Of a stretch of DNA of 64,000 bases, positions 6,131 to 18,216 are shown one piece after another (position 1 is the stretch's first letter; each line of letters begins with the position of its first letter). The stretch is taken from positions 1-64,000 of the forward strand of contig NZ_BJXA01000004.1 of NCBI RefSeq assembly GCF_007990755.1. Reading direction: 5' to 3'. The translations under genes were made by a program, and so were the position numbers. The stretch comes from Nocardia ninae NBRC 108245 (lineage in GTDB: Bacteria; Actinomycetota; Actinomycetes; Mycobacteriales; Mycobacteriaceae). The notes beneath the pieces are model-generated. The model had not been told where the DNA came from and made no database searches. It saw only the letters and a program-made list of their open reading frames with translations.

Positions 6131-7039
6131 TCAGGACAAGCTCAGAGCCTGGCCGATCAGGGTGAGGTAGAGCGCGAGGATGAAGACGACGGCGGGCAGG
6201 GCCGGATAGTCGACGCGGTCACCACGCAGGAACTTCAGCGCGCCGAAGGCCGGAATCAGCAGCAGCGGGACGGGGAGCCAGGCGAGCAGCGAGTGGTCCC
6301 ACGGACGGACGAGAGCGATATCGCACAGCACCGCCGCGACCGCACACAGCAGCGACGCCGCGGTGCTTCCCTTGGCGCCCAGGGCATTCGAGTACAGCAG
6401 CTCGCCGGGGCGGCGTTCGCGCGAGGTCTTCCTGGCGAACTCGAACTGGAGGAACGCCCCGGCGAACACAACGGCGACCGCCGCGGCCTGCCACTGTGCG
6501 CGCACCTCGCCGGTATCGATCGCCGAGACGACCACGTAGCCGGTGACGAGTAGCTGCACCGGATAGGTGACGAACAGATTCACCATTATGTTGGTGCGCA
6601 CTGTCGCGAAGAGCCACTCCAGCCCCCACAGGACCAGCCCGTAAGCCATTGCGACAGCGATCATTACGGCCGAACCCACCGACAGCGCCAGACTGCCCGC
6701 GATGGCTCCGAGCGCGATGAGCGCCATCGCCACGCGAAGTTCGACCGCACTCACCGCGCCGGTCACCAGCGGGCGGTCCGGGTTGTGCACGCGGTCGTAC
6801 TCGAGATCCTTCTGCTCGTCGACCATGCGCAGATACAGCAGCACGAACGCGACGACCACTATCCGGACCAGCGTGTCGCCGGTTGGCCGCCAGGCTGATT
6901 CCGGCTGTGTCACAAGCGAAGCCGTGCCTTCGAGCGCCAGCACCCACAGCACGCCGTACAGCAGGTAGTGCGGCTTGTACATCACCGCGGTGAACCGGCC
7001 GATCCGCCCGGCGGACGCCAGCGGATTCCTCACGCCCAC
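6131..7039 (-). CDS. UbiA-type integral membrane prenyltransferase
   Basis: A 302-residue polytopic membrane protein, about 7-9 hydrophobic helices. It carries the first aspartate-rich motif of the UbiA superfamily, DEQKDLEYDRVHNPDRP followed by LVTG, which binds the prenyl diphosphate through Mg2+. The usual second DxxxD motif is not obvious. Instead there is FARKTSRERRPGELLYSNALGAKGS, so it may be a divergent subfamily. It is the last gene of the nine-ORF minus-strand operon; its GTG start overlaps the nitroreductase stop by 10 bp. In the pathway it would attach an isoprenoid to the product or to a membrane carrier (inference). Substrates are unknown. Confidence 0.78.
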   Translation of the reverse strand: MGVRNPLASAGRIGRFTAVMYKPHYLLYGVLWVLALEGTASLVTQPESAWRPTGDTLVRIVVVAFVLLYLRMVDEQKDLEYDRVHNPDRPLVTGAVSAVELRVAMALIALGAIAGSLALSVGSAVMIAVAMAYGLVLWGLEWLFATVRTNIMVNLFVTYPVQLLVTGYVVVSAIDTGEVRAQWQAAAVAVVFAGAFLQFEFARKTSRERRPGELLYSNALGAKGSTAASLLCAVAAVLCDIALVRPWDHSLLAWLPVPLLLIPAFGALKFLRGDRVDYPALPAVVFILALYLTLIGQALSLS

Positions 7040-7638
7040 CGATCCCAGCTGGTCACCTCGGCCGCCGGTGTGCGCCGCCCCGGCCTGTCACTGCCCGGCA
7101 GCAGGTGCGCGACCGGGACCATGGCCACCTGGGTCACCTCGTCGAACGGGATGCCGAGCAGGTCGGCGACCTCGCGTTCGTAGGCCAGATGTGCCGTCGT
7201 CAGGCAGGATCCGAGTCCGCGCTCGCGCAGGGCGAGCATGAAGTTCCACACTGCGGGATAGATCGAGCCGTAGAAGCTCGCCGACCGCAGTGGCGGCGCG
7301 GACTCCGGCAGCCTGCCGAGCGAGCAGACAAGCACCAGCGCGGGCACCTCGGCCAGATGCTCCGCCAGGTACCGTCCGGAGGCGAGATCGCCGAGCTGAT
7401 CCGGTCGCGGTGTGCGTCCGGACAGGTTGGTGGCGAAGCCTTTTCGGTAGTACTCCGCGATCTGTTGCTTGGCTTCCGGGTCCTGCACGACGAGGAAGCG
7501 CCATGGCTGCCGGTTGCTGCCGCTCGGTGCCTGAATCGCGATATCCAGGCACTGAAGCAGATCTCGACGCTCGACCGGCCGGGTGAGATCGAGGCGGCGG
7601 CGAAACGACCGGGTCGTGGTGAGCAGTTCGGTGCTCAT
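7030..7638 (-). CDS. Nitroreductase-family FMN oxidoreductase
   Basis: A 202-residue nitroreductase fold protein. The FMN-binding signature APSGSNRQPWRF lies at residues 37-48, and the C-terminal region has ERGLGSCLTTAHLAYE and the closing LLGIPFDEV, as in BluB/NfnB-like oxidoreductases. Such enzymes use FMN and NAD(P)H to reduce nitro groups or quinones, or to dehydrogenate ring intermediates in biosynthetic clusters. ATG 7638 overlaps the stop of the AfsA-like gene (ATGA), indicating translational coupling. The position between AfsA-like and UbiA genes suggests a redox tailoring step (inference). Confidence 0.88.
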   Translation of the reverse strand: MSTELLTTTRSFRRRLDLTRPVERRDLLQCLDIAIQAPSGSNRQPWRFLVVQDPEAKQQIAEYYRKGFATNLSGRTPRPDQLGDLASGRYLAEHLAEVPALVLVCSLGRLPESAPPLRSASFYGSIYPAVWNFMLALRERGLGSCLTTAHLAYEREVADLLGIPFDEVTQVAMVPVAHLLPGSDRPGRRTPAAEVTSWDRWA

Positions 7639-8630
7639 CAGCGCTCGGCCGCAGGCAGTTCGGCGTCGAAACCCAGTTCGTCGTCGGCGAATTCGAGGTC
7701 GACCTCGGCCGCGACCGCGTCGCACTGCCGGATCTCGCAGTGGATCACCGTCCGGTCGGCCTGCTGCCCGGTGATCTCCGCAATGCATTCCGCAGGACGG
7801 TCCAGCTCCACGAATCGCTCGAAAGCGCTGCCGACGCACTGTAATCGGGGCGCCCGGTGCAGCACCATGGCCAGCGCGGTCTGCCTGCATGCCTCGATCA
7901 AAAGACTCCCCGGCGCATGATCGAGTTGGTGATCGAACAGAAACGGATGACCCAGGTCGGGCACCAGCGTGGCGCGGGCGGTGCTGCCGGACACCTGTGG
8001 CGCGGCGATCACGACATTGCGCCAGTTCTCCCGCCCCACCTCGGCCGCGACCGCGCGATCGGCGAGCGCCGACGCACCCAGATACTCGCCGAGGCCGAGG
8101 CTCTTGCGGAAGGCCGCGCGAAGCGAGGTCCACTGTCGCGACGTCATCCAGGAGAACGAGCCGTCGACGGTCATCATCGACTCCCCGCCGCAGTCGATTT
8201 CGAGCACCATGTCCAGACCCTGCACCCGCTCACCACGCACGTGCCGGCGCGGCACCCGCACCCGCATCACGAGATCGGCCGGCGCGGAGCCGATTTCCCA
8301 CGCCGAGGTATCGGCGCCGGTGCCGTTGAAGGTCCGCACGATGAACGCCATATCGGCAGGGACGCCGTAGAACTCGTGGCTCAGCGCGATCGCCGCCTGC
8401 CTGGCAGCCTCCATCACCAGCAGCGGGTCGTGCCGCAGCGCAAGCGATCCGAGGTGGTCGCTGTAGTAGGCGTGCATCCTCGGTAATTGGGCGCCGACCA
8501 CGAACTCGTCCTCGGCCACGGTGTCGAGCGAGGTGACGAACACCTCGGACACCGCGCACCGGTGCGCCAGTTCGCGCGAGATCGTGCGTAGATGAGTCGC
8601 GGTCTTCACCGTTTCCACGTTTGCCGTCAC
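7638..8630 (-). CDS. AfsA/ScbA-like A-factor biosynthesis hotdog protein
   Basis: A 330-residue protein with two AfsA-type hotdog repeats. The first (about 24-150) contains RMHAYYSDHLGS ... DPLLVMEAARQAA; the second (about 200-320) contains FDHQLDHAPGSLLIEACRQTA. AfsA proteins condense a beta-ketoacyl-ACP with dihydroxyacetone phosphate in gamma-butyrolactone synthesis; related proteins act in other ester- or lactone-forming steps. GTG 8630 overlaps the stop of the NDK-like gene by four bases. The first repeat lacks the usual DHP[VL]DH core, so only the second may be catalytic. No gene clearly encoding an ArpA-type receptor is adjacent, so a biosynthetic rather than a signalling role is possible. 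Confidence 0.85.
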   Translation of the reverse strand: MTANVETVKTATHLRTISRELAHRCAVSEVFVTSLDTVAEDEFVVGAQLPRMHAYYSDHLGSLALRHDPLLVMEAARQAAIALSHEFYGVPADMAFIVRTFNGTGADTSAWEIGSAPADLVMRVRVPRRHVRGERVQGLDMVLEIDCGGESMMTVDGSFSWMTSRQWTSLRAAFRKSLGLGEYLGASALADRAVAAEVGRENWRNVVIAAPQVSGSTARATLVPDLGHPFLFDHQLDHAPGSLLIEACRQTALAMVLHRAPRLQCVGSAFERFVELDRPAECIAEITGQQADRTVIHCEIRQCDAVAAEVDLEFADDELGFDAELPAAER

Positions 8631-9547
8631 GGTTGTTCCTCCAGCCAATCTTTCGCGGACACCGGGCGCAGCGTCTGCGGCTGCGTGCCGATCCGCATCG
8701 GGAGTACATAGGACCCGAGCACGATCACCGACCACGGATCGAGGTCCCGGCCGTCGGCCCACGCGGCATACAGCAGCTGCGCGCAGTCCGGGTCGGCCGC
8801 GCGGTCGAATCCGGGTGCGACCGGGGCGCCGGCCGCTTCGAGGTCGCGCAGAATCCGCTCCACCGCGACCGCACGGTCGAAGCTGCGAGCGGGTGTCCAC
8901 GCGTAGAGGTCGTTCGCGATCGCGAGGGCCTCGGACGAGCGGTCGATGCCCGCGCCCGCCTCCGCGATCACCGCCGCCCGGCGCTGTTCGTCCAGGTAGA
9001 TGGCGAGCTCCCGCAGCACATCAGCGGGATCGTCGGGCGAATGCACCAGATTCAGCAGGTAGCTGTGCCGGCCGAGCAGATGGCGCAACTCGCCAGGCTG
9101 CCGTTTACGCGGGTCGGTCGGGCCCTTGGCCTCGGTGAGACGCACGGGGACCGGCAGTTCCGCGTCTTCACCGCGCACGACGAGCACCAGCACGTCGGAG
9201 ATGCCGACGAGCAGGTCGGCCAGGCGGCGGCGTTCGGGTGAGGCGATGTTCCAGGCGAAGTACCACAGCGCGCGGGCGAAATGCCGGTCGACCGCAACCC
9301 GGAAGGCGGAGACGACTCGGAAGTCGTTGTCCGCCAGCCACTTCAGTGTCGGTTCGACGACTCTGGCAACGATGGCGTCCGGCTTGAGCAGCAGCATCGA
9401 GTGCGCCTTGGCGAACTTCGCGGCATCGACACCGAGGCGATCGAGTTGATCGACGGTCTCCTGCACATAGGTGTCGCCGACATAGGCCGCCACCTTTTCC
9501 CGCTGCGGCGTCAGCGCGGCGAGCAGCTCACCCAGCGGGGCCGTCAC
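8627..9547 (-). CDS. Nucleoside-diphosphate-kinase-like protein with extra domain
   Basis: A 306-residue protein. Residues about 46-185 align by eye with NDP kinase: MLLLKPDAIVARVVEP matches the [16 protein letters not shown] strand of the true ndk at 27693-28109, and NLVHSPDDPADVLREL matches the catalytic [16 protein letters not shown]. The phosphorylated histidine is retained (about His169), as is the Lys of KPD (about 55). A C-terminal segment of about 120 residues is unrecognised. GTG 9547 overlaps the SDR stop (GTGA). It may phosphorylate, or transfer a nucleotide-derived group to, a pathway intermediate (inference). Confidence 0.72.
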   Translation of the reverse strand: MTAPLGELLAALTPQREKVAAYVGDTYVQETVDQLDRLGVDAAKFAKAHSMLLLKPDAIVARVVEPTLKWLADNDFRVVSAFRVAVDRHFARALWYFAWNIASPERRRLADLLVGISDVLVLVVRGEDAELPVPVRLTEAKGPTDPRKRQPGELRHLLGRHSYLLNLVHSPDDPADVLRELAIYLDEQRRAAVIAEAGAGIDRSSEALAIANDLYAWTPARSFDRAVAVERILRDLEAAGAPVAPGFDRAADPDCAQLLYAAWADGRDLDPWSVIVLGSYVLPMRIGTQPQTLRPVSAKDWLEEQP

Positions 9548-10635
9548 CGGTCGGCTCCGCCGAAGTCGTTGCCCGCCAGCACTTCTTCGATCGACGGCAA
9601 GGGCACGCCCAGGTATCCGGATTCCAGGCAGTAGTCCAGCAGCACCCGCAGATACTCCTTTCCGGTCGACGGCGACGATCTGCCGAGCAGCACTTCGGCA
9701 TTCGATGTGACGAAGGCCAGCCGACGCTCGAAGTAGCTGGTGTACAGCGAGCCGATGCGCCGGTAGTACTCCCGCTCGATGGCGCCGAGATCGTCTTCGT
9801 GGAAGGTCGTCGCGGGCACGAAGGTCGCGACCTCGAACGACGGATACTCGGCGAACACGTCGGATACCTCGCGCAGCGACAGCGTGTCCCGGCCCAGCGC
9901 GTGAAAGGTGCGGCCGGTCGCCGAGTCGAAATCCAGCACGGCCGCGGCGATCACGTCGGCGACGTGGTCCACCGGCGCGAGCGAGAGCGTCGCGTCGTAC
10001 CGGCCGGGCAGCGAGCGCAGTTTGCCCTCGACCATGAGCTTGACCACGGTGTAGAGGTTCTTGTACTCGCGGATCACGCCGGTGCCGCTCGCGCCGGTCA
10101 CGATGCCGGGCCGCACGATCGCCCAGCGCAAGCCCTGCTCGCCCGCCGCACGCACCAGCTGTTCGGCGCGGAACTTGCTCTCCTCGTAGCCGTTTCCGAA
10201 GGATTGACCCGCGTCGAGTTCGTTCTCGGCGATGGTGCCGCCGCGTCTTCCGCACACGTACGCCGTGCTGACGTGTACGAGCGGAACGTCCCACGCCTGC
10301 GCGAGTGCGATCGCGTTGGCGGTGCCGCGGACATTGAGTTCGTCGTAGTCCTGCGCGGCGGCATCGAACGCCGTGGTGGCGGCGCAGTGCACGATCATGC
10401 CGACGCGTTCGGCCAGATCCGCCGAATCACGCTCGGACAGCCCGAATCCTGGGCTGCGGATGTCACCCGCGACCGGAGTGCCCGCGCCGAGCACCGTGCC
10501 GTCGTTACGGACGATGCACGAATTGCTGTGCAGCACAGCCGCGACCGGGCGGGTCGCGGCCGCCAGCCGGGCGACCACCTCCGCACCCACGAGGCCTGTT
10601 GCGCCGGTGACCAATACGGTGTCGCGCCCGCTCAT
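9544..10635 (-). CDS. Extended SDR / thioester-reductase-like protein
   Basis: A 363-residue NAD(P)-dependent protein. It has the Rossmann motif VLVTGATGLVGAEVV, a strand ending IVHCAATTAFDA, HVSTAYVCG and the catalytic YEESK (Y-x3-K), arranged as in NRPS-type terminal thioester reductase domains and Lys2/CarA reductases. These release carrier-bound acyl chains as aldehydes or alcohols. ATG 10635 is preceded by GAGG at good spacing and overlaps the stop of a 25-codon ORF. The ACP gene lies just upstream, so the ACP thioester is a plausible substrate (inference). A plain sugar-epimerase-like role cannot be excluded. Confidence 0.78.
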   Translation of the reverse strand: MSGRDTVLVTGATGLVGAEVVARLAAATRPVAAVLHSNSCIVRNDGTVLGAGTPVAGDIRSPGFGLSERDSADLAERVGMIVHCAATTAFDAAAQDYDELNVRGTANAIALAQAWDVPLVHVSTAYVCGRRGGTIAENELDAGQSFGNGYEESKFRAEQLVRAAGEQGLRWAIVRPGIVTGASGTGVIREYKNLYTVVKLMVEGKLRSLPGRYDATLSLAPVDHVADVIAAAVLDFDSATGRTFHALGRDTLSLREVSDVFAEYPSFEVATFVPATTFHEDDLGAIEREYYRRIGSLYTSYFERRLAFVTSNAEVLLGRSSPSTGKEYLRVLLDYCLESGYLGVPLPSIEEVLAGNDFGGADR

Positions 10636-10709
10636 GCCGCTGCCTCGCCGACGCTCGGTGCGGCTGTGCGCGAGAGTGCGCCGTGCCGCTGGTTCATTCG
10701 CGCGCTCAT
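10632..10709 (-). CDS. 25-codon coupled ORF between ACP and SDR genes
   Basis: ATG 10709 overlaps the ACP stop (ATGA), and its TGA overlaps the SDR start (ATGA), giving a 25-residue frame beginning MSARMNQRHGALSR and ending GEAAA. Either it is a translated microprotein or a translation-coupling bridge across what would otherwise be a 70-nt gap in an operon where every other junction overlaps. The sequence shows no domain or membrane segment and is Ala/Arg-rich like random high-GC sequence. The coupling-bridge interpretation is preferred. Confidence 0.4.
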   Translation of the reverse strand: MSARMNQRHGALSRTAAPSVGEAAA

Positions 10710-10969
10710 GACTGCTCCCCTGCGGCAAGCGCGGTAGCGACCAGCGCGATGACCTCACCGACCCGGCGCACGCCGACGAGTTGTTCCGGCTTGTAGCGCG
10801 GCAAACCGAACGACCGCTCCAGCACGACGGTCAGTTCCATCAACCGCAGCGAGTCGAAACCCAGGTCCTCGATGAGCCGTTGACTGTCCTCGGCCGGGCC
10901 CTGCGGGTCGGGCGCCATGGCGTACACCAGTTTGCGCACCCGCTCGGCCACTGCAGCATCGGCGGTCAT
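10706..10969 (-). CDS. Acyl carrier protein
   Basis: An 87-residue carrier protein with the phosphopantetheine attachment motif LGFDSLRLMEL (Ser about 40) and the four-helix ACP pattern. It follows the acyl-AMP ligase with an ATGA overlap, and is therefore its probable acyl acceptor: FAAL enzymes load acyl chains directly onto ACPs. Downstream enzymes (SDR reductase, AfsA-like) would then act on the ACP-bound chain (inference). No phosphopantetheinyl transferase is encoded nearby. Confidence 0.9.
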   Translation of the reverse strand: MTADAAVAERVRKLVYAMAPDPQGPAEDSQRLIEDLGFDSLRLMELTVVLERSFGLPRYKPEQLVGVRRVGEVIALVATALAAGEQS

Positions 10970-13900
10970 GGCCGCACCGCCCCGTCGCCTAGGTCCTGTG
11001 TCGAAGTCCGGCCGGATCCAGCCCCCGGAGGCGCCGGATCGGACTTCGACACAGGGCCCAGGTGCGGTTGCTGCCCGCCGGAGGCCAGCAGGTCGCGGGC
11101 CTCGTCGAGCGGCAGGTCGGTGTCGAGATAGCCTGCGATGCGCAGCCAGTCGTAGCCGATGGCCAGGGTGCGCCGCCACTGTTCCCGCGAGTCGAATGAG
11201 GCCGGGAACCCCGTCGCGGACGGGTCGGCGGCGACGGAGCGCGCCAACGTCACGAAATCGTCAAGGACTGCGAGGCCGGCCACGGTGTCGCCGGATTCCG
11301 AGAAGCGCACCTGCCGAGCCGATTCCAGCCGCGCGAACAACTCCTCGCGGGACACGGCGTTGCCGGGCACGAGGCGGCGCAGGGTCGACGATGGCGCGAC
11401 GTCCGCAGGCAATGGGTGAATGCCGAATGTGGACAACACCACCCGTACTCCCATAGCGATCATCCGATGCGCGGCGATGTCTGCGACAGCGCCCTGCCCG
11501 TTCTTGACCGCACCCGCCAAATCCTCGCGAGCGTTCTCCAGCACGATGTTCGACCACACCAAGTTCAGTGCGCACTCGGTGAACCGGCGGGCCGGCAGCG
11601 GTGAGAGTGTCGCGATCACGTCCTCGCGCGCAGCGCCGTTCACTCCGAGTGCCGGTGCCGAAGCGGACGGCACCGGCGTGTACGGCCGCACCGGCTTACA
11701 CATGGCTAGGGCGGGTTTGAGGAGTTCGCCACGGCGCCACTGCAAGCCGACGAAGCCGAGCCGGACGAACTCGGCCAGCTCGGCGGTGTTGTCATGCGGT
11801 GCGCGAGCGAGAACCGCGGCGAGTGAATGGCGGAACACCACCGAACGCCAGGCGCGGGCACCGTTGTCCGAGAGCGCGAAAACCTCACTGTCGCCGCGCA
11901 CTACGTGCACGCGCCCGCCGATGGTCCAGGTGGTGACGCCGGGCACCCTGGCGAACACGATCTGGTCGGGATCATCGACGACGCCCTCTACACCTAGTTC
12001 GGCGGCGAGTTCGAGCACCTGAATCCAGGTGGTCTGTTCGGACAACGCTCGCGCTGTCGCGTCGCCGAGCACGCCCTGCGGTGTGTCGCCGTAGCTCCGC
12101 TGCGTGTCGTCGCCCGCCCATGCGCCCGGATCGCTGAGATCGCGGTAGCGGTCAACGAGTTCGGCACTGCCGATCCGAACCAGTTGCTGCGGTAGCCATT
12201 TGGTCTCCAGGTAGCTCTCGCCCCGGCGGGCGGCCCACCCCTTCATGGCCTGGAGCAAGCCGTCGCGGGCCCAGTCGATCGCCTCGTCGCGCGCCTTCAG
12301 CGTGCGCAGCGCGACGGCGTAGCGCAGAGCCTGCACGGCGCGCGCGGTCCACCAGTCCGCGATCAGCGTCATGAACGTGGGGTGCGGCAACAGCGCCCGC
12401 AATCCGTCGACGTCGGGGCTACCCGGACGAATCACCGTCGCCCGCAGGAACCGCTGACACCGATTGAGCAGATCCTCGTCGAGCTCGGCCACGGTGGCGG
12501 CCTGCGCCACCTGGTCGAGCTGGCGGCGCAGCTGCGATTCCGAGCGCGTGCGCACCTCGACGCGACGGCCGTCGATGAACAGGACCGTCGGCAACGTGGG
12601 CAACTCCTCGTCGCCGGGCGCGAGCACCAGGAAGTCCACATCGGATCCCGCGTTCCCGAATCCTTCGGCGAGCGAACCCTCGAACAGGATGATCGAATCC
12701 ACCGGCACCGCAACGATTTCCAGCGCTTGGTCGAGCAACTGGCGGACCCGCTCGGCCGCCAGGGTCGGCTCGGGGAGGTCGGTCGCGGGTGTGCTGCCCC
12801 GACTTTCCGGCGCGGCCTCGAGTCCGATCGCGCTGCTGGACGCATCGGTCGCCGCTCGCGCCAGGCCTTCGCCGGACTGCGGCGCCTCTCCGGCGTAACT
12901 ACCGGCGTCGGAGTGGCGGGCAGCTTCCGGCTCGTGCACCACAGCGTCCGTCAGCGATCCGTCGCGGAACTGCTCCCACATATGACGTCTGCGCGGCTTA
13001 CCGCTCGACGTGCGCCGAATGATGCCGCGCGGCCCGGTGACGATGACGACGGTCTGAGCAGGCCCGAGCTCGCTGCGAATGATCCTGCGCGCCTCGGCGA
13101 TCCAGTCGCCCGCCTTGGCCTCGGCGAACAGCGAGATCCCTTGATCGCCGGGTCCGGTGATCGCGACGGCGGCGAGTTTGCCCTTGGTGATTCCGGTTTC
13201 CTGAGCGACGCGGGACTCGATGTCCTCCATGAACACCGAACGCCCGCGCACCTTCAGGCTCGACCCCATCCGGCCCAGCACGAATACCTCACCACGATGC
13301 AGGAATCCGGCGTCACCCGTATACAGCGCGCCGTCGATGATCCTGGTGGACGCGCCTTCGGACTCGTCGGAGTAGCCCAGCGCCACCGAATCGCCGACCA
13401 CGACCATCTCGCCGAGCGTGCCGTCGGGTAGCTTGCGCCCGTCCTCGTCGACCACGGTGACGGTCGACTCCGGCGTCGAGTAACCGAGGCCCGTGATCCA
13501 GCCCGCGCCGTCCACGCGATGGGTGTCGTCGAGCAGTTCCCGGTCGAGGATGGTGACGGGTTCGCCGAAACGCAGCGTCGGGGTGTCGATGCGCAGGGCG
13601 GTGATCGGACGATGCCGCGCCGAGGAGGTCACCATCAGGGTCGACTCCGCCAACCCGTAGGCGAGCGTGTAGGCACTCATCGAAAAGCCGCGTGGCCCGG
13701 TGAGATTCGCGAACGACTGGAGATCGGCCACCTCGACGGGCTCGGAACCGACGGCGAGTGTGCGCCACCCGGATAGGTCGAGATCGGCGATCTCCTCGGG
13801 CGAAACCCGGTGCGCCACATAGCCGAGCGCGAACGACGGCGACGGCGAATGCTGGGCGTGCGCCATCGCGCGCAGCCAGCGCGCGGGGTCGCGGACGAAC

Positions 13901-14607
13901 TGGTCCGGGCGCATCAGGTACAGATCGCCCTGGTTGGTGACGGTGGTGAGGAACGCGCCGACCAGCCCCATGTCGTGGTAGAGCGGCAGCCAGGACACCA
14001 TCGCCTCGCCGCTGCGCCACTCGACCAGGGCGGAGATCATGGCGATGTTGTTCGCCAGGTTGTGCCAGCTCACCCGCACGCCACGCGGGGCGGCGGTGGA
14101 GCCGGAGGTGAATTGCAGCAGCGCGCACTCGTCGGGCTCGCCGAACACACGCTCCTCGGGGGCGCGCAGCGTGGCCGCGTCGATCACCACGGGTTCGTCG
14201 GTGCGCCCGGCCGCCGTCGCCGCCTGCCGCACCAACTGCTCGAACTCCGTCGAGGTGACCACCAACCGGGGTTTCGCCTGCGTCACAATGGCGGCGATGT
14301 GCGCGATGATCTGGTCGAGGTCGCCGAACATCGGCGGCGCAACCGGCGTGAACACGCCGCCGCACGCCCAGACCGCGTAGAACGCGGCGACGCAGGGAAA
14401 TCCGGTGGGCATGATGACGCAGGCGCCGTCGCCGCTGCCCATCCCGTGCTGCCGCATCACCGCGGCGATCGACCAGGTCAGTTCGGCCAGTTCGGCGTAG
14501 CTCCGATACTCCCAGCCGTCGGCCTCGTCGGCCAGGTAGATTCCGGCCGCCTCGGCCGGGACGGCTAGCCAATCGCGGACGGCCGCAACGTCTTTGTCAG
14601 GATTCAT
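10966..14607 (-). CDS. Fatty acyl-AMP ligase fused to nucleotidyltransferase domain
   Basis: About 1213 residues. Residues 1-560 are an ANL-superfamily fatty acyl-AMP ligase: phosphate loop LLQFTSGSTAAPRGV, the FAAL-typical WLPLYHDMGLVGAFL, YGLAEST, YTGDAGFL, and the C-terminal lysine loop SSGKPRRR. A low-complexity linker leads to a Pol-beta-type nucleotidyltransferase near 630-760, with GSLAEGFG ... SDVDFLVL (GS and DxD metal motif) and EVRT as a possible third acidic residue. The C-terminal 400 residues are a helical region without a recognised family. The last roughly 30 residues come from an inserted palindromic repeat. Start ATG 14607 has AAGGAG nine bases upstream; ATG 14616 would leave none. 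The enzyme probably activates a fatty acid for the ACP encoded next. Confidence 0.85.
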   Translation of the reverse strand: MNPDKDVAAVRDWLAVPAEAAGIYLADEADGWEYRSYAELAELTWSIAAVMRQHGMGSGDGACVIMPTGFPCVAAFYAVWACGGVFTPVAPPMFGDLDQIIAHIAAIVTQAKPRLVVTSTEFEQLVRQAATAAGRTDEPVVIDAATLRAPEERVFGEPDECALLQFTSGSTAAPRGVRVSWHNLANNIAMISALVEWRSGEAMVSWLPLYHDMGLVGAFLTTVTNQGDLYLMRPDQFVRDPARWLRAMAHAQHSPSPSFALGYVAHRVSPEEIADLDLSGWRTLAVGSEPVEVADLQSFANLTGPRGFSMSAYTLAYGLAESTLMVTSSARHRPITALRIDTPTLRFGEPVTILDRELLDDTHRVDGAGWITGLGYSTPESTVTVVDEDGRKLPDGTLGEMVVVGDSVALGYSDESEGASTRIIDGALYTGDAGFLHRGEVFVLGRMGSSLKVRGRSVFMEDIESRVAQETGITKGKLAAVAITGPGDQGISLFAEAKAGDWIAEARRIIRSELGPAQTVVIVTGPRGIIRRTSSGKPRRRHMWEQFRDGSLTDAVVHEPEAARHSDAGSYAGEAPQSGEGLARAATDASSSAIGLEAAPESRGSTPATDLPEPTLAAERVRQLLDQALEIVAVPVDSIILFEGSLAEGFGNAGSDVDFLVLAPGDEELPTLPTVLFIDGRRVEVRTRSESQLRRQLDQVAQAATVAELDEDLLNRCQRFLRATVIRPGSPDVDGLRALLPHPTFMTLIADWWTARAVQALRYAVALRTLKARDEAIDWARDGLLQAMKGWAARRGESYLETKWLPQQLVRIGSAELVDRYRDLSDPGAWAGDDTQRSYGDTPQGVLGDATARALSEQTTWIQVLELAAELGVEGVVDDPDQIVFARVPGVTTWTIGGRVHVVRGDSEVFALSDNGARAWRSVVFRHSLAAVLARAPHDNTAELAEFVRLGFVGLQWRRGELLKPALAMCKPVRPYTPVPSASAPALGVNGAAREDVIATLSPLPARRFTECALNLVWSNIVLENAREDLAGAVKNGQGAVADIAAHRMIAMGVRVVLSTFGIHPLPADVAPSSTLRRLVPGNAVSREELFARLESARQVRFSESGDTVAGLAVLDDFVTLARSVAADPSATGFPASFDSREQWRRTLAIGYDWLRIAGYLDTDLPLDEARDLLASGGQQPHLGPVSKSDPAPPGAGSGRTSTQDLGDGAVRP
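10988..11062. repeat. CCTAGG-ended palindromic element inside a gene 3' end
   Basis: A 75-bp inverted repeat. The 23-bp arms (10988-11010 and 11040-11062) differ at two positions and include a perfect 16-bp core CCTGTGTCGAAGTCCG and its complement. The outer ends are CCTAGG and CCCAGG. The right half, starting GGAGGCGCCGGAT, is closely repeated at 41412-41466. It lies within the last codons of the acyl-AMP ligase gene and encodes its C-terminal tail (GPVSKSDPAPPGAGSG onward). It looks like a small non-autonomous palindromic repeat rather than part of the ancestral gene. Confidence 0.7.
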
Positions 14608-17296
14608 CGCGGACATCTCCTTCGGCCAGCACCGTCACGGTCCCGTTCGTGCCATCGACCCGTATCCGCGCGCCGGTCCGCACCTTGGTGGTGACGTCCT
14701 TGACCTGGACCACCGTCGGCACCCCGAGTTCCCGCGCCACGATCGCGACATGGGTGAGCGGGCTGCCGCGCTCGATGACCAGCGCCGACGCCGAGGGCAG
14801 TGCGGCCACCCAGCCGGGATCGGTCCGATATGCCACCAGGATGCCACCCGCGACGTCGCGTGGCTCGTCCACCACGACGGCTGTCCCCTCGACGATCCCG
14901 GAGGCCGACGGTGTGCCCACGAGGACAGTCCCGGCTTCGGCCGCCGGGGTATCGGTGATGGGCACCCAACCCTGGGTTGCCAGTTCGGCTCGGCTGAAAG
15001 CCGACCCGGTGGTGACGAACCTGGCCGGAGCGACCAAGCCGGCGTCCCTGGCGCGCTGTGCCTTTCGCGCGCCGACGAGGTCACGCAGGTCGGTGGTGTC
15101 GGCCTCTTCGTAGCAGCCGCGCAGCTCCTGCACGGTCAGGTAGAACACGTCGGAGAACTCGTCGATGACGCCGCGCTCGGCCAGGTCGCGGCCCATCACC
15201 CGGATCATCCGCTTGACCATGCCGAAGGCTCTGGTTCGGCAGAACCGCAGCCGCTCACGATGCGCGGCGCAGCGGGAAACCTTGCCGCGCAAGCGTTCAT
15301 AGATCTTGCGCCGGATTCCGTGCAGATGCGCGTCGAGGTATTCCTCGGCCTCGTCGCGGTGGCCGAGCGGCGCGTCCGGCAGGGCGCTGCGCAGCATGAT
15401 GAACAGGCTCGCCGGATCTTCGCGCAGGTCAGGTGTTTCCAGTTTGAGTTCGTCCAGGCTTCGATAGCCGTAGCGGTCGATGTAGGCGTCGACCTCGGCG
15501 CGGAAGTCCGGATGGTTCGCCAGTGCCGGGTAGATCTGTTCCGGCGCAGTCGAATTCACCAGAGCGGTCAGTTCTGGGTCGGCGCGGGCCACGTCGGCGA
15601 GGGCCTTCATCGCGCGGGCGGGTTCGGCGGACTCGACGTCGGCGCCGGGGCCGACCACCGCGTACAGGAACCACTCCGGCGCTTTCGGCAGCAGCAGCTT
15701 GGTGAGCAGGAACATCAACCCGGTGCAGGTCAGCAGGATCGCGTCGAGCACCATCAGCGGGCCCCAGCGTTCGACCAGGTCGCGGTCCACCTTCCGGTAC
15801 GCCGCATAGGCTTCGGCGCCGGATAGCCCGGTGTAGTCGATGGCTTCGTACTCGTCGTAGCCGCGGTAGAAGTCGGTCATGAACTGTTCGACGATGGTGT
15901 CGATGCCGAACAGCCGCCGCAGATAGGTCAGGGTGGTCACCGAGCGCGAGCGAAGCCGACTCAGCGGGTTCCCGAAGGTGAACGGGCGCAACGTCTTCGC
16001 GATGTCGTCGGGTAGCGGTTCGGCCACGCCGAGGGCAGCCTCCAGCACCTTGCGGTTCAGTGGGTAGCCCGGCGCGATGCCGACCATCCGATACCAGTGC
16101 AGCAGGTTGTAGTAGACGCGGCCGTGAAAGTAGCCGAGCAGCACCGGAGTCCAGCGCTCGGTCTGCCGCAGCTGCTTGTCGGGGACGCGGAGCGACTTCG
16201 CGTAGCCGTGGTACACCCGGCCGTAGATGTCGGCGGCGGTGGTGAAGGTCAGCGGCGAGGTGAGGCCGTTGAAGCTCTCGATGATGTTGGAGTTGTCCCA
16301 GATTCGCTGTTCGCCGTCGGGCACCACCTCGCCGGCGCCACGGATCAGCGCGCCGGGCGCGGCACCGAGCACCGTGGTGATGGGGCGCGACTGGAGGAAC
16401 CAGAGTCCCGCGTCGTCGATCGCCCACTCCACATCCTGCGGGGCGCCGAACTCGACCTCCAGCTTGCGGCCCAGCTCGGTGATCTCGGTGATCTCGGCGT
16501 CGGTCAGTACGGGCAGCTCGCGTTGCCCCGCGTCGACCGGGCTGATCGCGTAACCCTGCTCGCCCTCGGCCACGTACGACCGGTCCTTATCCCCGAGCAC
16601 GGTCTCCAGCACCGCGCCGGAGGACTTGTCGACCACGACGGAGTCGGCGTCCACCGCACCCGATACCAGGCCCTCACCGAGCCCGTAGACCGCGCTGATG
16701 ACCAGTTCGTCGCGCGCACCGCTGATCGGATTCGCGGTGAACAGCACGCCGCTGGCTCGGGCCGCGACCAAACGTTGCAGCACCACGGCGATGGCGCCCG
16801 CTCGCGGCTGCTTGTTGGCGAAGGCGTAGCGCAGCGAACGCTCCGAGAAGGCCGACGCCCAGCAGTCGCGCACCCGGTCGAGCACCGCGTCGACCCCGTT
16901 GATGTTCAGAAAGGAGTCGAACTGGCCCGCGTACGAGTGCTCCGGCCCGTCCTCGGCGACCACCGACGACCGGACTGCGATGGGTCCGTCGCCGAGCCGC
17001 CCGCACGCCTCGGCGATCAGCTCGCGGAGCTCGCTGGGCAGCGGTGCCGCGGTGATCTCGGCCCGCAACGCGGCACCGGCGGCGAGCGCCGCGTCCAGAT
17101 CCTCGAGAAGTGTGACCTCGGTCACTTTCCGTGCGAGGTCGGCTTCGACGGTGAACCGCGCGAAGACGTCGGTGCCGAGCACGGTCCAGTCGGGAACGCG
17201 AAAACCGCACTCCCCCAGACGGTGCAGACCGCGCGCTTTACCGCCACCGACGGCGGCGATCGTCGCGATATCGGTCCATGGTCCAAGCACCTGCAC
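14597..17296 (-). CDS. PEP-synthase/PPDK-like phosphotransferase
   Basis: An 899-residue dikinase-type protein. The N-terminal ATP-grasp half (about 1-320) has GGGKARGLHRL, VRSSVVAEDGPEHSYAGQFDS and the closing DVEWAIDDAGLWFLQSRP. A large helical linker follows, and the swivelling phosphohistidine domain at the end has GSPLTHVAIVARELGVP (His about 849). The PEP/pyruvate TIM barrel of true PEP synthase is absent. This architecture matches rifampin-phosphotransferase-like enzymes that pass the beta-phosphate of ATP through His to a hydroxyl of a small molecule. GTG 17296 has GGGAG upstream. As first gene of the operon it overlaps the acyl-AMP ligase by 11 bp. Confidence 0.82.
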   Translation of the reverse strand: MQVLGPWTDIATIAAVGGGKARGLHRLGECGFRVPDWTVLGTDVFARFTVEADLARKVTEVTLLEDLDAALAAGAALRAEITAAPLPSELRELIAEACGRLGDGPIAVRSSVVAEDGPEHSYAGQFDSFLNINGVDAVLDRVRDCWASAFSERSLRYAFANKQPRAGAIAVVLQRLVAARASGVLFTANPISGARDELVISAVYGLGEGLVSGAVDADSVVVDKSSGAVLETVLGDKDRSYVAEGEQGYAISPVDAGQRELPVLTDAEITEITELGRKLEVEFGAPQDVEWAIDDAGLWFLQSRPITTVLGAAPGALIRGAGEVVPDGEQRIWDNSNIIESFNGLTSPLTFTTAADIYGRVYHGYAKSLRVPDKQLRQTERWTPVLLGYFHGRVYYNLLHWYRMVGIAPGYPLNRKVLEAALGVAEPLPDDIAKTLRPFTFGNPLSRLRSRSVTTLTYLRRLFGIDTIVEQFMTDFYRGYDEYEAIDYTGLSGAEAYAAYRKVDRDLVERWGPLMVLDAILLTCTGLMFLLTKLLLPKAPEWFLYAVVGPGADVESAEPARAMKALADVARADPELTALVNSTAPEQIYPALANHPDFRAEVDAYIDRYGYRSLDELKLETPDLREDPASLFIMLRSALPDAPLGHRDEAEEYLDAHLHGIRRKIYERLRGKVSRCAAHRERLRFCRTRAFGMVKRMIRVMGRDLAERGVIDEFSDVFYLTVQELRGCYEEADTTDLRDLVGARKAQRARDAGLVAPARFVTTGSAFSRAELATQGWVPITDTPAAEAGTVLVGTPSASGIVEGTAVVVDEPRDVAGGILVAYRTDPGWVAALPSASALVIERGSPLTHVAIVARELGVPTVVQVKDVTTKVRTGARIRVDGTNGTVTVLAEGDVRDES

Positions 17297-17365
17297 GGCA
17301 TGCTCCCATCACCCCTGATCGTTACGCCGAGGCACCACGCACCGGCTCGTTCGGGCAGAGCACAA

Positions 17366-17400
17366 CTAAGGGGTTGTATGGATATATCCGAGAATTCACC
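17366..17400. promoter_or_regulatory. AT-rich palindromic region between divergent operons
   Basis: The 215-bp gap between the biosynthetic operon (minus) and the EspG gene (plus) contains an AT-rich island with the perfect palindrome GGATATATCC at 17380-17389, flanked by AT-rich bases in an otherwise GC-rich stretch. It probably holds the promoter of one or both operons. I could not assign a convincing -35/-10 pair, so this is only a candidate. Confidence 0.35.
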
Positions 17401-17511
17401 GCAGTGTTAGCCCACAATCCTAGGTGCTCGGTGCGGCGACCGCCGACGCGCGCGACGACCGTTAAGCTACAACCCAGTTTCGGTGGGTTCGGTGAGGATG
17501 TGATTCGGGCG

Positions 17512-18216
17512 GTGAGTTGGACGTTCACTCCGGACGGGTTCGCCCACCTTTGGCGCGAAACCGACCTCGATCGGCACCCGTATCCGCTGCGCATCCTGGA
17601 AACGCCGCGCACCGAGGACGAGGCCGACAAGCTGCGCGCGACGCTGGAGGAACGGCTGCCGCTCGGCGCAGACCCCGACCTGAGCGCCTGCCTGCGCATC
17701 CTGGCGGCACCGCACACCCGGATCGTGGCGATCGGCGGCACGCACACGCCGGGGAGTGAGATCCGGCTGCTCGCCGCGGCGATCTTCGATCGGGCCGTGC
17801 TCGCCGTGCAGGAACCCGGTTCGTCCCCCGATTTCGGCGGGCGCGTTCGACTGTCGATCGGGCACAGCGGCAAACTGGGCAATCGGATCGCCGGACTGCT
17901 GCCCGCCGCGCCGCCCGGCAAGGAGCCGGCCCGGGTGGCGCCGACCGACGCCGTCCGCGACGAGGAAGTGGTGGTCGCGCAGCAGCCGACCGCACCGCGC
18001 ATCCGCAAACTGCTGCTGAAACCACATAGCGCCGAAGGCCATATCCGGATCGAGCCCGGTCTGGATCGGCCCGCTCCGCCGCCGCCGATTCACTACACCT
18101 GGTTCGACGTGAAGGGCGACGGACGGTATCTCCTGCGGGCGGGCAAAGAAGTTCACATCACTCCCGCCTCGGCCGAACAGATCGGCGCGCAACTGCAGAA
18201 GCGCATCGGAGCCTGA
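17512..18216 (+). CDS. EspG-like ESX secretion-associated protein
   Basis: A 234-residue protein of the EspG family: it starts VSWTFTPDGFAHLWRET and ends with the hallmark-like block YTWFDVKGDGRYLLRAG. The paralogue at 60811-61590 begins similarly (VRSWRFTGQEFDILWSA) and has the matching DYADDGRYYIKSG. EspG proteins are cytosolic chaperones for PE/PPE and WXG-type substrates of type VII secretion systems. GTG 17512 is chosen to match the paralogue start; GTG 17500 is an alternative. The next two genes encode candidate clients. Confidence 0.8.
   Translation: MSWTFTPDGFAHLWRETDLDRHPYPLRILETPRTEDEADKLRATLEERLPLGADPDLSACLRILAAPHTRIVAIGGTHTPGSEIRLLAAAIFDRAVLAVQEPGSSPDFGGRVRLSIGHSGKLGNRIAGLLPAAPPGKEPARVAPTDAVRDEEVVVAQQPTAPRIRKLLLKPHSAEGHIRIEPGLDRPAPPPPIHYTWFDVKGDGRYLLRAGKEVHITPASAEQIGAQLQKRIGA

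Follow-up and report, generated by a model that had tools for sequence, protein, structure and literature searches.

Known systems and the Nocardia operon

The A-factor pathway of Streptomyces combines AfsA with a butenolide phosphate reductase, and the salinipostin cluster of Salinispora reportedly comprises nine genes, spt1-spt9, with an AfsA-type butyrolactone synthase as the ninth; spt-like clusters have reportedly been found outside Salinispora too. The operon considered here lies at 6131-17296 in the first 64,000 nucleotides of contig NZ_BJXA01000004.1 of Nocardia ninae NBRC 108245 (this whole stretch is called the window), and it is very probably an spt-like gamma-butyrolactone phosphoester cluster of the salinipostin/cyclipostin class, its predicted product being an alkyl phosphoester of a gamma-butanolide.

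Salinipostins carry their alkyl chain on the phosphoester oxygen, as stated in a portion of PMC9892989, and a portion of PMC6681047 suggests that these compounds and A-factor share an origin. The gbl cluster of Rhodococcus jostii RHA1, given as gblA, gblR and gblE in the available part of PMC5735094, likewise places an AfsA-family butyrolactone synthase in a Nocardiaceae genome, but that part includes a TetR receptor gene and names no fatty acyl-AMP ligase (FAAL), nucleotidyltransferase (NT), nucleoside diphosphate kinase (NDK), phosphoenolpyruvate synthase (PEPS)-like or UbiA protein. A report on spt-like clusters outside Salinispora is cited by title in parts of PMC12838356 and PMC12114271. 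The spt genes are not described in the available parts of PMC6681047, PMC11095149, PMC12838356, PMC12114271, PMC7413640, PMC5735094, PMC9892989 and PMC12153302, and literature searches by enzyme names found no report, neither of which amounts to absence in print; the words butyrolactone, AfsA and salinipostin do not occur in the main text of PMC12153302.

Layout of the operon

The operon consists of nine open reading frames (ORFs) on the minus strand, none with internal stops, lettered A to I in the direction of transcription:

14597..17296, minus strand: A, PEPS-like dikinase with an ATP-grasp and a phospho-histidine mobile domain, spt1-like (PPDK_N 5e-73; PEP-utilizers 3.7e-21)
10966..14616, minus strand: B, FAAL fused to an ANT-like NT, with a long conserved C-terminal extension (AMP-binding 8.5e-44; NTP_transf_2 3.5e-4)
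10706..10969, minus strand: C, stand-alone acyl carrier protein (ACP) (PP-binding 1.7e-5)
10632..10709, minus strand: D, 25-codon ORF bridging ACP and SDR, a local insertion
9544..10635, minus strand: E, thioester-reductase-type short-chain dehydrogenase/reductase (SDR) (TIGR01746 2.7e-41, 142 bits, below the cut-off of 213)
8627..9547, minus strand: F, NDK-like phosphate kinase with an extra C-terminal region (PF00334 8.9e-11)
7638..8630, minus strand: G, AfsA/ScbA-type gamma-butyrolactone synthase with two hotdog domains, spt9-like (PF03756 7.5e-37)
7030..7638, minus strand: H, nitroreductase-family flavoenzyme, optional, in the presumed butenolide-reductase slot (PF00881 1.5e-24)
6131..7033, minus strand: I, UbiA-superfamily membrane transferase with a DxxxDxxxD first motif and an E-x-A-R-K second motif (alignment and predicted fold)
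10990..11065, minus strand: palindromic repeat resembling repetitive extragenic palindromic (REP) elements, in the 3' end of B

Going from A to I, the gaps at the junctions measure -20, -4, -4, -4, -4, -4, -1 and -4 bp, counted with the start of I at 7033, which we judge preferable to 7039 on the ground of the GTGA overlap. A first-pass annotation, made from the letters alone, had described nine coupled minus-strand ORFs joined mostly by 4-bp overlaps; positions, strand and open frames were confirmed, and six of the eight junctions are such overlaps. Its enzyme assignments agree with the Pfam and NCBIfam matches, and for UbiA, which falls below the Pfam cut-off, with the predicted fold. Eight of the genes are conserved, D being the ninth member and not conserved, and the fraction of G and C at third codon positions (GC3) is 0.81-0.87 in the eight and 0.73 in D.

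Comparison with the Salinispora operon

In Salinispora oceanensis (locus L121), nine genes stand in a row on the same strand, most of them joined by -4 bp junctions, in the order PEPS-like, FAAL, NT, ACP, SDR, NDK, UbiA, F420-type luciferase-like oxidoreductase and, last, AfsA, an arrangement that probably corresponds to the spt cluster. All eight enzyme families expected of an spt-like cluster (PEPS-like, FAAL, NT, ACP, SDR, NDK, UbiA and AfsA) are found in the one Nocardia operon, which is likewise a coupled, one-strand arrangement. The first-pass annotation had called the operon undescribed and recognised no characterised pathway with this set; that view was not supported, as the Salinispora operon shares its families except the reductase and probably corresponds to the spt cluster.

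The two operons differ in several respects. FAAL and NT are separate genes in Salinispora but fused in the window; AfsA of the window follows NDK instead of standing last and belongs to another AfsA clade; the Salinispora reductase is the F420-type luciferase-like enzyme whereas the window has a nitroreductase; and the 25-codon ORF and the repeat-derived tail of B are local additions on the Nocardia side.

The kinase ties the two together. In the NDK tree, 28 cluster rows including Salinispora form one clade against 13 non-cluster relatives (support 98/96.9; 98/94 with only nine of the 13 relatives), and by this tree the NDK gene of the operon and that of the Salinispora nine-gene operon are shown to share common ancestry.

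Conservation across genomes

With the NDK-like protein as query, 112 of 397 genomes of the order gave a match, mostly weak and confined to the NDK domain, and of 20 stretches fetched around the better matches seven held the operon. Scanning the contigs of named genomes with the NT region found 91 relatives, of which 80 loci were kept; these include several strains per species and overlap with the G-handle loci, so that the counts are not independent. Full-length NDK, AfsA and UbiA occur together in the same 69 of the 80 loci; A, B and E accompany them in 68 of the 69, with C as well in 67. The whole set A, B, C, E, F, G and I is thus present in 67 of 80 loci, each with both the FAAL and the NT parts, and conservation beyond one strain, which had been proposed as a check on the operon, was found across many genera: Nocardia, mycobacteria, Gordonia, Tsukamurella, Rhodococcus, Paractinoplanes, Salinispora, Streptomyces and others. 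The two of the 69 that fall short are L077, whose contig starts within B, and L118 (Streptomyces), where no ACP match was obtained. The other 11 loci are two cut by contig ends (L063, L100), four actinobacterial clusters and five Paraburkholderia clusters.

Gene order among the 69 is ABCEFGHI in 30, ABCEFGI in 29, ABBCEFIG in five and five others once each, and 290 of 431 counted junctions measure -4 or -1 bp, gaps above 1500 or below -120 bp being left out. Within the genus, the NT region was matched in 69 of 148 Nocardia genomes (E 1e-30). A divergent EspG-like gene lies upstream of the operon (17278-18216 in the window), and the flanks of 36 among the 69 full loci hold a match to it, which suggests a fixed chromosomal site of the operon.

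Enzymes of the operon

Gene A heads the operon. PPDK_N and PEP-utilizers are its sole Pfam families even at E<=5, and the PEP/pyruvate C-terminal domain was not found by Pfam at that threshold. PEP synthases are expected to carry such a PEP/pyruvate-binding domain, and a plain PEP synthase was ruled out for A on domain content, despite its NCBIfam name. The two-domain architecture is that of rifampin phosphotransferase and of the PigC/RedH/TamQ-type ligases, PigC being among the prodigiosin ligases, and the tambjamine pathway has a similar FAAL-ACP loading; A scores below the cut-off of each of the RedH, PigC and rifamycin phosphotransferase NCBIfam models. The closest solved chains are 5fbs, 5hv1 and 5hv2, and the phospho-histidine motif was located in 78 A rows, 66 of them through one pattern and the remaining 12 by inspection. 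From its sequence, A is predicted to act as a substrate phosphotransferase.

Fatty acyl-AMP ligases are among the best NCBIfam models of B, where no model of the 25 listed is exceeded at its cut-off, and the solved structures closest to the FAAL part are FAALs. A model of the NT part (mean pLDDT 74) gave ANT(4')/kanamycin nucleotidyltransferase as top Foldseek matches over partial length (TMq 0.28), and the NT signature pattern is present in all 80 loci. The last ~30 codons of B are missing from the relatives shown and overlap the palindromic repeat, whose 35 match rows correspond, by our own count, to 28 distinct places in its own genome, its own site included (40 of 85 candidates scored). 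A PqqD-like region in B, considered under the idea of a ribosomally synthesized and post-translationally modified peptide (RiPP), was unsupported, Pfam returning nothing and Foldseek a weak ThcOx match (E 0.39).

The solved structure closest to E is MxaA (3.4e-22), a reductase yielding alcohols, and E probably takes acyl-ACP to the fatty aldehyde or alcohol. ACP and SDR genes usually meet in a direct 4-bp overlap (63 of the 73 loci having both), and D, which lies between them in the window, was matched in only one of 80 loci, N. suismassiliense (L051), at a cut of 40 bits, not far below the 50 bits that D scores against itself. By these matches D is not a conserved part of the operon, and a RiPP precursor was ruled out for it on the same count. 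In three close relatives (L052, L053 and L057, at about 11250-13200), ACP and SDR share one frame of 478-479 amino acids, which suggests a natural ACP-SDR fusion.

Residues K55, R155, N166 and H169 of F, presumably the catalytic Lys, Arg, Asn and His of NDK, are invariant in all 36 aligned rows (the row subsets being 36 for NDK, 52 for UbiA and 28 for AfsA). The region of F that should hold the nucleotide base appears to differ from the NDK norm, so that the acceptor of F may be something other than a nucleotide.

The NDK-like family of ~300 amino acids is also found near other enzymes (L039-L049), among them a class II aldolase with an EPSP synthase-like protein (L046), an amidotransferase-phosphoribosyltransferase (L047) and a phosphodiesterase with NTP_transf_5 (L049). 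In two Nocardia genomes (L034, L050), A adjoins F or an F remnant in the absence of the remaining operon genes, which shows that A and F are able to stay together.

Gene G belongs to the AfsA/ScbA class by its two hotdog domains, its DHxxDH motif, which is invariant in the 28 rows with both the Nocardiales and the Salinispora-type groups represented, and its score of 211 bits against the ScbA/BarX equivalog NF041195 (cut-off 200); in the PDB, no sequence matched the AfsA profile at E<=1. A second AfsA-family gene of the same genome (G000:C18:115143-116036) is distant from the G of the operon.

D72, D76, D80, E198, A200, R201 and K202 of I are invariant in the 52-row UbiA alignment, the second motif being E-x-A-R-K in 52 of 52 rows, and its score is 27.6 of the 34.2 bits of the Pfam cut-off. 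The AlphaFold model (pLDDT 96) has Foldseek matches to UbiA homologues, to the DGGGP synthase of archaea and to a membrane phosphoribosyltransferase (PRTase), the last two of which join lipid and phosphate partners.

Proposed route

The proposed route would begin with activation of a fatty acid by FAAL and its loading onto ACP (step 1), after which SDR would reduce the acyl-ACP to a fatty alcohol (step 2) and the PEPS-like dikinase would phosphorylate this alcohol via a phospho-histidine, as rifampin phosphotransferase does (step 3). AfsA would join a beta-ketoacyl thioester with dihydroxyacetone phosphate to give a butenolide phosphate, which the nitroreductase would convert to the butanolide phosphate (step 4). 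The NDK-like kinase and the ANT-like NT may then turn one of the phosphate partners into a diphosphate or a nucleotide ester (step 5), and the UbiA protein may couple both halves in the membrane to a long-chain alkyl butanolide phosphodiester (step 6), and ring closure through its enol could turn this into a cyclic enol phosphotriester; a fatty-alcohol diphosphate could optionally serve UbiA as a prenyl mimic. Which substrates steps 3, 5 and 6 use, and in what order these steps occur, is proposed tentatively, at somewhat less than even confidence. The predicted first step on the butanolide side, beta-ketoacyl thioester plus dihydroxyacetone phosphate, is the same in the A-factor pathway, but A-factor is dephosphorylated, whereas the operon adds enzymes that could esterify the phosphate. 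An acyl-ACP-derived butenolide or butanolide lipid and a phosphorylated or nucleotide-linked step, both suggested at the outset from the letters, are supported as interpretations.

Evidence against and alternative explanations

Several observations weigh against the assignment to the salinipostin class. NCBIfam NF004881 labels A a PEP synthase (1010.6 bits, cut-off 883). A canonical UbiA prenyltransferase has two Asp-rich motifs, and I lacks the usual second one. T144 of F, at an NDK active-site position, varies among the 36 rows (24 Thr, 11 Ala, one Ser). Neither reductase type was found in 31 of the 69 full loci (nitroreductase was matched in 32, in L123 outside the operon, and the F420-type luciferase-like enzyme in six); one of the 31, L064, matches H in part, over 90 residues. 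At 184.5 bits, the AfsA of Salinispora falls short of the 200 required by the ScbA/BarX model. The genes beside the operon yielded no ScbR-type receptor, since the TetR close by reaches 20.6 bits against a cut-off of 150; the best ScbR-like match in the genome lies on another contig with 146.2 of 150 bits (150 of 241 candidates scored). Finally, a single clade of the 29 cluster AfsA rows was rejected by the approximately unbiased (AU) test (p 0.0014; long rows L123 and L153 dropped and L146 relabelled a cluster member), and a 38-row tree shows the same split, and because the AfsA of the two groups do not form one clade, the head group could differ between them.

It is this last point that would lend weight to a divergent assembly, in which the Nocardiales operon has the spt chassis and, after an exchange of AfsA and the reductase, a different head group. 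The 23 Nocardiales AfsA rows form a clade (97/88) set apart from the AfsA of the Salinispora, Paractinoplanes and Streptomyces loci, the position of AfsA differs, and a nitroreductase replaces the F420-type luciferase-like enzyme. However, the AfsA catalytic motif is identical and invariant in both groups, and an exchange within one enzyme function would yield the same tree; a different head group appears unlikely. The NDK and AfsA trees are read here as a putative exchange of the butanolide-forming genes (AfsA and reductase) while the rest stayed. The row L147, labelled 'other' and placed near the Salinispora group, belongs to locus L163, which has a PEPS-like gene (34%), AfsA, ACP, a ketosynthase and a gene that shares 28-30% identity with UbiA but is not recognised by Pfam, so that a related type of cluster may be present within the Salinispora AfsA group itself.

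That the product is a structural phospholipid of the membrane or cell wall and not a signal-like secreted compound is quite improbable: mycolic-acid bacteria (Nocardia, Mycobacterium, Gordonia, Tsukamurella, Rhodococcus) account for many of the carriers and the UbiA fold is near archaeal lipid synthases, yet the NT region is matched in fewer than half of the Nocardia genomes searched, and the Salinispora, Paractinoplanes and Streptomyces carriers fall outside the mycolic-acid group. A plain A-factor-type signal cluster with the other genes as accessories has very little to recommend it beyond the passing ScbA/BarX score of G and a TetR gene ~1.4 kb downstream, since the joint presence of NDK, AfsA and UbiA in 69 of 80 loci is too consistent for accessories, the TetR falls far below the ScbR cut-off and is matched in just seven of 80 loci, and the available part of PMC5735094 gives gblA, gblR and gblE as the genes of the gbl cluster in R. 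jostii RHA1.

Loci without AfsA and significance

Beyond the salinipostin-class operons, part of the gene set recurs in other company. Antrihabitans cavernicola (L079), a Rhodococcus metagenome-assembled genome (MAG; L091), N. mexicana (L093) and a Gordonia MAG (L098) have B, C and E with a distant A (33-34%), and no NDK or AfsA match was found within the stretches fetched. L091 and L098 have ketosynthase-ACP-thioesterase (KS-ACP-TE) and C-A-T proteins of the nonribosomal peptide synthetase/polyketide synthase (NRPS/PKS) kind, an FtsX permease and proteins resembling thymidylate kinase, of which L091 has two and L098 at least one that scores below the Pfam cut-off. L079 has a KS-ACP-TE protein, FtsX, two thymidylate-kinase-like proteins, an HMG-CoA reductase and a UbiA-family gene that matches I at 30% along 120 residues; L093 has oxidoreductases in place of the NRPS/PKS set. 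The five Paraburkholderia loci (L126-L130) contain SDR, NT, A and FAAL, with a fatty acid desaturase and an RND pump beside them in L126, the one of the five on which Pfam was run.

This pattern fits a reused alkyl-phosphate module. Our tentative proposal, for which the odds seem to us a little below even, is that a movable module (PEPS-like, FAAL, NT, ACP and SDR) may be combined with various heads, namely AfsA/NDK/UbiA, NRPS/PKS with FtsX and thymidylate-kinase-like proteins, or desaturase/RND in Paraburkholderia, that AfsA and the reductase were exchanged, and that Nocardiales may make phosphate-linked lipids beyond salinipostins. The spt-like operon is of a kind already known; what would be new is the NDK ancestry shared with Salinispora, the AfsA/reductase exchange and the reuse of the alkyl module.

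A likely product class is hereby assigned to an operon whose NT region occurs in nearly half of the sampled Nocardia genomes and in several mycobacteria. Serine hydrolases are inhibited by cyclipostins and cyclophostin, and salinipostins act against malaria parasites (parts of PMC11095149 and PMC9892989), so that a native relative of these compounds in mycolic-acid bacteria would be worth testing. The comparison also sets the alkyl and butanolide halves of the pathway apart, an aid in assigning the unproven NDK-like, NT and UbiA enzymes.

Neighbouring genes

No tRNA and no Rfam match at gathering score was found in the 64-kb window. Flank genes were called by a simple GC3-based caller, by which overlapping ORFs may be merged. 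Downstream of the operon lie the TetR gene, an O-methyltransferase and a glycosyltransferase-P450 ORF (26-2647 in the window, 873 amino acids), in which a family-4 glycosyltransferase and a cytochrome P450 are joined.

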